Assembly (NCBI GenBank): GCA_947168585.1
Contig: CAMVMK010000009.1
Location: forward strand, 1-58,366
Direction: 5' to 3'
DNA from: an uncultured Fretibacterium sp.
GTDB lineage: Bacteria > Synergistota > Synergistia > Synergistales > Aminobacteriaceae
DNA length: 58,366 nt
Shown: piece after piece, positions 15,307-18,509 of the stretch
Numbering within the stretch: position 1 is the first letter of the stretch
How the letters are laid out: each line of letters begins with the position of its first letter
Position numbers and translations under genes: made by a program
Notes under the pieces: generated by a model
The model's database searches: none
Told to the model about the DNA's origin: nothing
The model's input: only the letters and a program-made list of their open reading frames with translations

Positions 15307-15672
15307 TCACTCTTTTATCAAAGAAGCAGCTCTTTCCCTCAAATCTTTTATTTGAGCCTCGCTTGCAAGCTGTCCATTTTTCTCAAGTATATCAGCGGCA
15401 AGATTGTAATATTTTGCGGCTTCTTTTGGGTTGCGTTCGACCTTGTTATCACCTGTGTCATTACTGCCTGCTTTGTATAATTCAGCTAAATTTCCTGCGG
15501 CTTCAGGTATTTCAAGTTCAGCAGCTTTGCGCCAAATGTCGATGGTTTTCTTCAAATTTTTGGGAACACCGCGTCTGAGCATGAGCCCGTAATTATATAA
15601 AACGCTTTTAGCACACTCATCGCCGCTTTCAGCGTCTGAGATTATTTTATTTAATTCTTCATTAGAATACAT
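15307..15672 (-). CDS. Small Sel1-like repeat protein
   Basis: A 121-residue soluble protein with two to three Sel1/TPR-like helical repeats: 'AKSVLYNYGLMLRRGVPKNLKKTIDIWRKAAE' patterns and 'AAGNLAELYKAGSN...NPKEAAKYYNLAAD'. These repeats usually bind other proteins. The start at 15672 is chosen over the longer frame because AGAGGAG lies just before it and the upstream part overlaps the neighbour out of frame. It follows the Gly-rich membrane protein gene after 16 bp, so the two are probably one operon. Confidence 0.7.
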   Translation of the reverse strand: MYSNEELNKIISDAESGDECAKSVLYNYGLMLRRGVPKNLKKTIDIWRKAAELEIPEAAGNLAELYKAGSNDTGDNKVERNPKEAAKYYNLAADILEKNGQLASEAQIKDLRERAASLIKE

Positions 15673-15688
15673 TAAAAACACATCTCCT

Positions 15689-16000
15689 CTAACGCCAAAT
15701 CTTATTGATGAGTTTATAAGCAAGCCAGCCCCCAGCCACTGCCGGTACTGCAATTACGGAAACTGAGCCGATAGCTGCGGCAGTTGTAGCAGCTGCAACT
15801 GTCGCACCTCCACCGACTACTGCTCCTCCCACAGCTCCGTCTATGACGTTTGCAATACCAGTGAATACTGCTCCTAAAACCCCGCCTGAAGCCATAGCAG
15901 ATGATACAGCACCACCTGCAAGCGCAGCTCCTCCTAAAGTTACTGCAGTTTTTATACTTCCTTCTGCAACTTTTTCTTCGATTGGATCATTAGCATTCAT
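15689..16000 (-). CDS. Small Gly/Ala-rich membrane protein (glycine-zipper type)
   Basis: A 103-residue protein. After a short acidic N-terminus (MNANDPIEEKVAEG) almost the whole chain is Gly/Ala/Val: 'GGAALAGGAVSSAMASGG', 'VIDGAVGGAVVGGG', 'AVPAVAGGWLAYKL', ending KIWR. The GxxxG spacing suggests tightly packed transmembrane helices, as in glycine-zipper proteins and some hydrophobic bacteriocins; no family is recognised. The ATG at 16000 has AAAGGAG nine bases upstream; earlier in-frame ATGs at 16009 and 16021 are too near or before that site. The promoter with an 11-G run (16035-16067) lies directly upstream. Confidence 0.65.
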   Translation of the reverse strand: MNANDPIEEKVAEGSIKTAVTLGGAALAGGAVSSAMASGGVLGAVFTGIANVIDGAVGGAVVGGGATVAAATTAAAIGSVSVIAVPAVAGGWLAYKLINKIWR

Positions 16001-16034
16001 TGACGACATCTCCTTTATCATAAAAATTTTTCAA

Positions 16035-16067
16035 ATTTTACCCCCCCCCCCAACTTGTTTTTGTCAA
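16035..16067 (-). promoter_or_regulatory. Promoter-like module, copy C (TTGACA, 21-bp spacer with G11, TAAAAT)
   Basis: On the minus strand TTGACA (16067-16062) and TAAAAT (16040-16035) are separated by 21 bp that include eleven consecutive G (16051-16041). TAAAAT lies about 35 bp before the start of the Gly-rich protein. The spacer is longer than optimal; losing three or four G would bring it to 17-18 bp. Confidence 0.5.
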
Positions 16068-16089
16068 GGATATTAATCTGCAATATAAA
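16061..16089 (+). promoter_or_regulatory. Divergent promoter TTGTCA-17 bp-TATAAA
   Basis: TTGTCA at 16061-16066 and TATAAA at 16084-16089 have exact 17-bp spacing. The -35 overlaps the opposite -35 of copy C. It would transcribe the 14-codon ORF at 16153. Confidence 0.4.
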
Positions 16090-16152
16090 TTCCGCAAAAA
16101 TTTTCATGTGCTAAAATTTACTTAAAAACTCTCAAGGAGGTTTAATTATTTC

Positions 16153-16197
16153 ATGAAAAAAATTCTTAAAATCTTTATTAAAAAAATCTCCCTCTGA
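16153..16197 (+). CDS. 14-residue cationic amphipathic peptide ORF or truncated gene start
   Basis: ATG at 16153 preceded by AAGGAGG (16134-16140) encodes MKKILKIFIKKISL and stops at TGA. Five Lys alternate with Ile, Leu and Phe, which would form an amphipathic cationic helix similar in character to short lytic peptides. It could equally be the first codons of a signal peptide cut off by the IS630-type fragment that overlaps its end by 20 bp on the other strand. Both a promoter and a strong ribosome-binding site are present. Too short for family assignment. Confidence 0.4.
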   Translation: MKKILKIFIKKISL

Positions 16198-16396
16198 AAT
16201 TTAATTTTTCCGGATCAATTTTCCTAAATGAACGCTTAACGGGATGTTTTTTTAAGTTCCCCTCTTCTTTTAACTGATTTTCCCACTTATACATTATCGT
16301 TACAGACACTCTAAAGACTTTCTTAGTCTGTGCCAACGTGTGCCCTTCATGCCAATATTCTAAAGTTCTTTTTCTATATTTTTCATCGTATGCCAT
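16178..16396 (-). pseudogene. IS630-type transposase N-terminal fragment (helix-turn-helix)
   Basis: About 72 residues starting MAYDEKYRKRTLEYWHEGHT. The pattern 'Y...YRKR-x-LEY-x-x-EGHT-x-x-x-x-KKVF-x-VS-x-x-x-x-YKW' is the N-terminal DNA-binding helix-turn-helix of IS630-family transposases. It ends abruptly after 'IDPEKLNFRGRFF'; the DDE catalytic domain is absent. No ribosome-binding site is seen before the ATG. It is most likely a decayed insertion remnant, and the two G-run promoters point away from it on both sides. Confidence 0.6.
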
Positions 16397-16449
16397 AATT
16401 TTTATATTATACATTTTTTAAGTTTTTTAGCTATAATTCAAAAAAATTT

Positions 16450-16479
16450 TTGACAATTTCAAGGGGGGGGGGGTAAAAT
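16450..16479 (+). promoter_or_regulatory. Promoter-like module, copy B (TTGACA, 18-bp spacer with G11, TAAAAT)
   Basis: TTGACA (16450-16455) and TAAAAT (16474-16479) are 18 bp apart; the spacer ends in eleven G (16463-16473). The ATG of the downstream surface-protein gene is at 16522 with GAAAGGA before it. Almost the same 50 bp occurs on the minus strand at about 230-289. A homopolymer in a promoter spacer is a typical slipped-strand phase-variation switch. Confidence 0.6.
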
Positions 16480-16521
16480 TTTTTACGCAATAAAAATTTT
16501 TTGAAAGGAATTGATGTTTTT

Positions 16522-18509
16522 ATGAGACGAATTAATATATTTGCGTACTCGTTTTTACAGCGGGCACAGCGTAGGCGAATTTAGCTACCACTGCACCTTC
16601 TCAAGTTGCAAATCTTGTGGATCATGGAGTTGGAAATTTAACCTCACTTACAACAGGTAATCCCAGCTTAACATTCACTGCAAATAGCGATAATAACGGT
16701 GGAGGTACTATAAAATTAAGTGCAACTAATCTGAAATATCATAAAAATGCAAATAGTGCTGGCGGCTATTGGATTGGCCCTTTTATACCGAATTTAGCAA
16801 ATGGTGATAATTCTTCTAATTACACAATTACATATGCTTTTAGTAACTCTGAGATAACTGATTCTGAATTTACCGGGACTGGGATATTTAACGATGATAA
16901 AACACAAGAAGGATTTTACGCGAATCTTTCCGACAGTAATACAGCTAAAAAATATATAGCTATCAAGTATACAAAAACTGGCGAAAATTCTACTTCTACT
17001 ACTGTAAAATATACTCTTGATTTTAGTGAAGTAACTTTGGATAAGCCGACCGTTGCTGTAGAAGGAACAGACACAACAGTTGATTTCTCCCAAGAAACAC
17101 CGACCGCCCCAAAACTTAAAGCCACGTTGACGAATACAAATCCGTACCTCCTTACTAGTTATAAATGTCAATGGTATCTCAATAAGACAAACACCACAAC
17201 CGGCGGCACAAAAGTGGGGTCTGAGGGAACATTCGCGACAGCAGAAACAACAACAGAAACAGCAACAGCAACCTACGATGTACCCATTACGGATAAAACT
17301 AACCGCACTGAATATTATTACTGCGTTGTTACAGCTGACGGAGTAGAAGTAACAAGCCCCTCTGCTGTAAAAATAGAGTTCAAGGGCGGTACAAATCCGA
17401 CTACCTCTGCACCTGAAGACAGCGGCGGCGGCTCCGGCGGCGGTACAGGTACAGGCAACAATGAGACCAATACCGACACTGAACCCACGACCGAAGAAAT
17501 TAAAGAGGCAAATAACGAGGCTTTAGAAAGTCAGGGCGACGGCACTCCGGAAACAACGAACGCAATCGAAGCGGCAAAAGAAGCCCTCGAAAATGCAAAT
17601 ATAACCGTCCCGCTCACTGAAGAAGAAGTAAGGGCTCTCGTTCAGAATCAAAAAGAAATCGCGGCTGAGAAGACAACGGAAGCTGAAGAAGGCAGGGTGT
17701 CTAATCCGGAAGTTCCGGCGGCTTCGAATTTATTCGAGGATAACAGTTCTCTCTCGGCTCTCGATAATCTTTCAGCAGCTCCCAAAGCTACAGAGCCGGG
17801 AAGACCTAATGATACAGAGCAGGCCGCAATCGTGTCGAGTTTGAGCAATCTCAGCAATGTTGATGCTGACGCAAAAGCTGACATTCCGGCAGACTTTGAC
17901 CCGAACGAAATTCAGCAGGCTACCGAAGAAAATATCGAAATTGCTTCTGTTCCGTCATTGCTCGAAGCGCAGGCCGAATTTATTCAGGACTTGTTCAACG
18001 CTATCAAAGAGTACTTGACGAAAGTTATTAACACAGAAGCTCGGTACGGCGTAACTTTAGCGACAAGAATGCCCGCGCTCAGACCTAAAACTACAGGCTA
18101 CTTCCCGATGAATATAAACATGAGGAATCTTGTTCCCGGTCAGAGACTGCGTTACTGGTCTTCTACTGAAGCAATAGAGGAAGCAGCTACTGCGGAGACA
18201 GCTTCACTTGCGGCTGATGATAAAGAAGGCACAGCATTTTTCTTAGATAAAAACGGCAATCCTACGACAGTAGTCAAAGGCAACGCAAGCAAAATGAAAG
18301 TCGTACCTTACCTGGTAGCTGGCAAGACTTACGACTCTGCTTTCATAACTGTTGACGCAACGGAAGAAGACCAAAAAACTCTCACGGCTCTTGCGGCTCA
18401 AAAAACTGATGATAACTCAGGAAGCTCAAGCGGCGGCTGCGAACTCGGACTCGGTTTAGGAGCATTAGCAGCTTTCATGGCCTTCATGAAGACCTCTAAG
18501 AAACGCTAA
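16522..18509 (+). pseudogene. Synerg-CTERM surface protein gene with disrupted signal peptide
   Basis: The body (frame open from 16575 to 18509, over 640 codons) holds an Ig-like or beta-rich region (about 16700-17400), a Gly/Ser/Thr linker, an acidic Ala/Glu-rich helical region and a C-terminal Synerg-CTERM signal (SSSGGC, 'LGLGLGALAAFMAFM', KTSKKR). The natural start is ATG 16522 (MRRINIF...), but that frame stops at 16582. The body frame reads CVLVFTAGTA, then TAG (16572-16574), then ANLATTAPSQ, which looks like the rest of the signal peptide and its cleavage site. So one frameshift near 16540-16550 and one amber codon separate start and body. An internal GTG at 16617 would give a protein without a signal peptide. 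A sequencing error could explain part of this. Confidence 0.7.

Follow-up and report, generated by a model that had tools for sequence, protein, structure and literature searches.

Do two promoter-like modules that place eleven Gs between TTGACA and TAAAAT form a phase-variation locus of their own, or do they belong to something larger? The preliminary description of this DNA had taken them, together with a third copy, as outward-facing promoters whose spacers change by slipped-strand switching of envelope genes. The window, by which we mean the whole stretch of 58,366 nucleotides that was analysed, is contig C9 of a 2.35-Mb MAG of 110 contigs that is 93.9% complete. The MnmE protein of this genome is closest to that of an uncultured Fretibacterium MAG (56%) and next to that of a Synergistales MAG from red deer (53%), so the source is an uncultured Synergistaceae-like bacterium, probably of the gut. 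We examined this source genome along with 40 sibling genomes of the same genus and 24 genomes from other families.

Two poly-G promoter modules flank an IS630 fragment

The features of the window that bear on the question are as follows.

275-249, minus strand: related promoter-like module TTGACAATTTCAAGGAGGGGGTAAAAT, with a spacer of 15 bp and an A that interrupts the G-run
15307-15687, minus strand: Sel1-repeat protein (PF08238), after the Gly-rich ORF
15689-16000, minus strand: Gly/Ala-rich hydrophobic ORF, just downstream of the 21-bp promoter
16067-16035, minus strand: promoter-like module TTGACA-N10-G11-TAAAAT, 21-bp spacer
16178-16396, minus strand: N-terminal fragment (72 aa) of an IS630-type transposase (Pfam HTH_Tnp_IS630, PF01710, E 1.6e-8)
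16450-16479, plus strand: promoter-like module TTGACA-N7-G11-TAAAAT, 18-bp spacer
16522-18509, plus strand: surface-protein-like gene that follows the 18-bp promoter and is interrupted close to its start

Direct reading of the sequence bore out the description of two modules with an unbroken G11 on either side of the IS630 fragment and spacers of 18 and 21 bp. On the plus strand, TTGACA (16450-16455) is followed by a spacer made of ATTTCAA and G11 (16463-16473) and then by TAAAAT (16474-16479). On the minus strand, TTGACA (16067-16062) is followed by AAAACAAGTT and G11 (16051-16041) and then by TAAAAT (16040-16035). Both are directed outward, away from the transposase fragment between them. 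The ends of IS630 were considered as the source of the promoter copies and rejected, as no common end was seen by eye. The third copy does have the 15-bp spacer ascribed to it, but its G-run is interrupted and no gene is seen behind it; the module points at the contig edge. A short ORF remnant at 85-174 on the plus strand (RPHEANGGLSPDE), which looks like the end of an integrase-type transposase, adjoins this copy. Over the window, the G9 pattern occurs at 6 overlapping places, compared with 0.06 expected from shuffles.

The 18-bp promoter had been said to drive a surface protein. It does not do so as assembled, because the gene is interrupted near its start: translation from the ATG at 16522 would stop at 16584, and a TAG stands at 16572 in the main frame (ORF 16617-18509). 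A gene on contig C3 that has the same leader is open from its start and encodes 717 aa. A scan of genome contigs with the surface protein confirmed no relative. Since NCBIfam gave no family, the label "Synerg-CTERM-like" is a presumption made by eye. Behind the 21-bp promoter, the Gly/Ala-rich ORF most likely starts at 16000, judging from the AAAGGAG just upstream. It matched no family in Pfam or NCBIfam, and a homologue of its product is absent from the 40 sibling genomes.

The modules belong to a genome-wide set of poly-G tracts

Runs of eight or more Gs number 60 in the source genome when each tract is matched once, compared with about 1.7 expected by extrapolation from the decay of shorter runs. 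They comprise 16 of G8, 30 of G9, 6 of G10, 7 of G11 and one of G13; these lengths, and the frame states given below, are provisional because they come from one assembly per species and short reads are prone to errors once a G-run reaches 8 (PMC4235727). The existence of the tracts and of their flanks is firmer than their lengths and frame states. The tracts are internal to contigs, their contexts recur, and each of the 41 genomes examined from the genus has such runs. The promoters in the window are thus members of a genome-wide poly-G set and not an isolated locus.

A promoter class with the G-run abutting the −10 box

The pattern TTGACA-N4-14-G6-N0-7-TAAAAT occurs at 8 places in the source genome and its backwards version at none. 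In all 8 exact promoters a run of G8 to G13 abuts TAAAAT, and the spacers are 15, 15, 16, 16, 18, 19, 21 and 21 bp. The tract of porA is located between the −35 and −10 boxes, and a homopolymer occupies the same position in each of these 8 cases. Three further tracts lie in promoter-like surroundings (C36:21388, C30:912 and C2:107338). The count of promoter-type tracts depends on the definition, being 14 at its widest, 13 in the frame scoring, 11 in the flank count and 8 in the strict form; C15:36669, C2:30387 and C5:43650 were moved from the promoter type to the intragenic class. The ORFs behind these promoters are of surface type or encode small secreted or membrane proteins, and one, judged by eye, encodes a family-2 glycosyltransferase.

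Relatives of the stretch 16440-16540 were found at 225-284 of the window (90%), on contig C3 (78% over 101 bp) and on contig C47 (86%). Once aligned, with the row for C30 left out for its wrong orientation, these homologous promoters differ chiefly in the G-run, which is 11, interrupted, 8 and 9. The exact promoter form was not found in the 40 siblings, so that the arrangement looks confined to its own species. Six of the 40 have one match each to the pattern TTGACA-N4-14-G6-N0-7-TAAAAT, of another make. Among the single promoter-like G-tracts of siblings are TTGACA-G15-CATG-TATAAT (L313, genome G032) and TTGACA-N8-G11-TATTAT (L324, genome G034).

Most other tracts are intragenic

Most of the other tracts lie inside genes, often those of glycosyltransferases and methyltransferases. 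With the 13 promoter-type tracts set aside, 47 were examined for reading frame, and 40 were scorable in that at least 90 nt were open on both sides on the G strand. Sixteen keep the frame and 24 shift it, although at least 3 of the 24 OFF calls are open to doubt, since C57 and C62:4099 may concern genes of the opposite strand and C2:1842 is located between two genes. The in-frame share is indistinguishable from the one third of a free frame (p 0.40). Frames both open and shifted at intragenic tracts are what a translational phasome would present. In the siblings, the in-frame counts were 5/25 (G032), 1/7 (G034) and 3/14 (G031). Two tandem paralogues on contig C18 differ in tract length, one being open and the other frame-shifted.

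The Pfam search covered 40 separate ORF pieces, which came from 38 tracts and included the C3 gene of the promoter class. A family was assigned at E ≤ 0.001 to 27 pieces, a few of them under Pfam's own cut-off, and the other 13 matched none. The families include FkbM and other methyltransferases, GT11, GT2, GT1, GtrII, CDP-glycerol transferases, a piece like UDP-galactopyranose mutase, DUF4422, MatE/MurJ, a dicarboxylate symporter, a solute-binding protein and an HD-domain regulator, among others. Many of the genes at tracts encode surface-modifying enzymes. The closest orthologue of the symporter (G009, 65%) runs without a break, and ordinary Gly codons stand at the position of the tract, suggesting that at this one site the tract arose in place.

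Two tracts lie at apparent protein-sorting signals, as judged by eye. The G9 tract L047 (C7:2929-2937, minus strand) is within the final ~25 codons for a secreted-type protein of 640 aa, in an apparent C-terminal sorting or anchor signal that may be Synerg-CTERM; through slippage at this place the protein could alternate between an anchored and a released form. The G8 tract L050 (C10:16115-16123, minus strand) is at an apparent lipoprotein signal (lipobox) and has no TA after it.

Nearly all tracts of the source genome are followed by TA

With the flanks of all 60 tracts read, TA stands directly after 58 of them (39 TAA, 12 TAT and 7 TAC), the exceptions being C10:16115 (TG) and C36:21388 (AA). 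Among the loci read in this genome, the share of runs followed by TA climbs with run length, from 3.6% for G3, 3.7% for G4, 7% for G5 and 2/11 for G6 to 3/4 for G7, 14/15 for G8 and 30/30 for G9. TA was seen in all three downstream codon phases, in promoters, and after five tracts in genes of the C strand (L038, L045, L056, L085 and L087; L064, a promoter tract, and L089, in a clear G-strand gene, were set aside). Since it occurs in every phase, in promoters and on both coding strands, TA is a property at the level of DNA and not a codon effect. Selection for stop codons was rejected for the same reasons and because 19 of the 58 are TAT or TAC. A hidden −10 box in the intragenic tracts was rejected as well, there being no excess of T at +6. 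In 45 non-promoter tracts, with one counted per paralogue pair, the flank is further biased to C at +4 (19/45), T at +8 (27/45) and T at +9 (31/45, p 2e-7).

In 36 siblings, TA follows 304 of 787 tracts, against 92 in the backwards control. The 24 genomes of other families had no TA excess (30, with 44 in the backwards control), and tracts are also fewer there. One of these genomes, G048, has AT before G8 runs 13 times and TA after them once, the reverse of the genus of the window; its tracts perhaps lie just after start codons.

A positioned upstream motif in sibling species

Motif searches upstream of the tracts gave different results in different siblings. In G032, where 50 of 53 tracts were read and the 46 of at least G9 were searched, 33 of the 46 are preceded by a TACGTAATT-like motif whose start lies 19-21 bp before the tract, with a score of 152 compared with 52 after shuffling. 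In G063, where 42 tracts were read and 32 used, 19 of the 32 have a GTAAAA.TAC-like motif that begins 15-17 bp ahead of the tract (score 119, shuffled 45). The searches in G031 (n = 15; 50 against 47) and G034 (n = 10; 42 against 46) did not exceed the shuffle. Runs of G8 were excluded in G031, G032 and G063 and included for G034. A looser motif score was reached by 34/46 tracts in G032, 27/33 in G063 and 9/15 in G031, compared with 15-16% of random windows. With this looser score the motif was found in all three codon positions, with the fewest cases where its TAA would be in frame.

The pattern GTAA-N6-15-G9 gave 416 raw overlapping places in 36 siblings and 64 when read backwards, the places being unevenly spread and several siblings having none. 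In the 24 genomes of other families there was 1, with 9 backwards. The source genome has no such upstream motif, as judged from 17 of 57 tracts compared with 27% of random windows and from 4 places of GTAA-N6-15-G9 compared with 5 in the control. The GTAA..TAC motif is near an inverted repeat (GTAA..TTAC), and its typical distance differs between G032 (L265-L314) and G063 (L325-L364). The contexts of the tracts are thus specific in sequence, and they vary from one related species to another.

Mismatch repair is retained

Hypermutation of the Campylobacter type, through a missing mutS, was considered and rejected. All 41 genomes of the genus gave a MutS1 match (35 over the cut-off), and that of the source genome is full-length at 827.8 bits (cut-off 641.7). 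Since MutS1 is present, the very high slippage of bacteria that lack mismatch repair is not expected.

Discussion

We consider it quite probable, from sequence comparison, that these tracts serve genome-wide slipped-strand phase variation, in which poly-G switches promoters and intragenic frames at random. Replication slippage would alter the number of Gs. The spacing optimum of sigma-70 promoters is about 17 bp; in the promoter class, a change in G number would shift the distance between the −35 and −10 boxes around this optimum and so tune transcription. Judging by sigma-70 promoters in general, the copy with the 18-bp spacer may be active, and those with 15 and 21 bp may be weak. In the intragenic class, a change in the number of Gs would toggle the reading frame. 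The outcome would be random, heritable and presumably reversible variation of envelope and other genes. Switching through promoter spacing, as proposed at the outset, is the best reading of related promoters that differ in the G-run, of spacers of 15-21 bp and of 60 tracts. Its assignment to envelope genes in the window fared less well, for the surface gene proposed as its target is interrupted near the start in this assembly and the copy at 249-275 drives nothing visible. A genome-wide and mostly intragenic set of tracts with specific flanks was beyond the view of that description. Plain slippage leaves the flanking motifs unexplained, and four alternatives were weighed.

The flanks may have converged by mutation, either because an unstable repeat biases mutation in its neighbourhood or because easily melting flanks, such as TA steps, favour slippage and persistence of the tract. 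We regard this as possible if somewhat doubtful. Around human (AC)n microsatellites the flanking 25-50 bases converge, which has been read as a shared mutational bias (PMC509290), and TA at the ends of tracts is common, to some degree, to most genomes of the genus. However, a near-absolute TA and a motif ~20 bp away at a near-fixed distance look too specific for such a bias, and the other families have no TA excess, albeit with fewer tracts. The human case resembles ours in that unrelated repeats have common flank features; it is a statistical bias, whereas here TA is near-absolute in one species and a positioned motif is found in others.

That a sequence-specific factor (a nickase, a recombinase, a replication-stalling or other DNA-binding protein) reads the flank and creates or destabilises the G-tract is a tentative and rather unlikely proposal. 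The TA that follows 58 of 60 tracts in all phases and on C-strand genes, with a share that climbs with run length, would fit such a factor. So would the positioned motifs of G032 and G063, which are well above their shuffled controls, and the enrichment of GTAA-N6-15-G9 in the siblings together with its scarcity in the other families. On the other hand, no such factor was found, the motif is species-dependent, being missing upstream in the source genome and not above the shuffle in G031 and G034, and weaker rivals could yield similar flanks. In its specific form, with a dedicated poly-G switching system whose factor reads a GTAA..TAC-like motif upstream in several species and G-TAWC...TT downstream in the source genome, we hold the proposal equally unlikely.

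It is improbable that the flanking motif is an operator at which a regulator binds beside the tract, with tract length altering the spacing. The operators of NadR at nadA of N. meningitidis do flank a phase-variable repeat whose number alters their spacing (PMC2791445), and the motif of the siblings is almost an inverted repeat. Many of our tracts, however, are well inside genes, where operators are less expected. The likeness to nadA is that sequence-specific sites flank a phase-variable repeat; the difference is that nadA is one promoter, whereas here the motif stands beside many tracts, many of them intragenic. Errors in the sequencing or assembly of poly-G, or G-runs that stand in promoters by chance, are a very improbable source of tracts that are contig-internal, recur in context, far exceed expectation and occur in every genome of the genus, even though short reads do err at such runs (PMC4235727).

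Genome-wide slipped-strand switching, which we prefer, has known counterparts, since promoter poly-G and poly-C switching and the Campylobacter phasome are already known. In N. meningitidis, porA (poly-G) and opc (poly-C) have promoter homopolymers of about 8-12 whose length sets the level of transcription (PMC6735796, PMC3447861). They resemble our case in having a homopolymer in the promoter; they are single genes, however, whereas here at least 8 promoters of the same form occur in one genome, with the −10 box abutting the G-run, in another phylum. The phasome of C. jejuni likewise has many intragenic poly-G tracts and frame switching of surface-modifying enzymes, and the share of ON states was near neutral drift in one data set (PMC6321876). 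C. jejuni is without mismatch repair (PMC4235727), whereas the genus of the window has MutS1. In the parts of the Campylobacter phasome literature covered, no flanking rule was seen reported. Among the matches listed, judged by title and the start of the abstract, none dealt with flanking or recognition motifs of bacterial poly-G of this kind, and among those listed for Synergistota there was no report of large-scale poly-G phase variation. A review of rumen Synergistota (PMC12366334) has no word that begins with "phase".

The set described here would extend large-scale poly-G phase variation to another phylum. The usual view of contingency tracts is that they are passive repeats. With specific contexts and a retained MutS, the idea of a bacterial machinery that aims hypermutation at chosen sites becomes testable. 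If a dedicated system does exist, it would direct hypermutation to selected sites, both in promoters and within genes, instead of leaving it to passive slippage at chance repeats.
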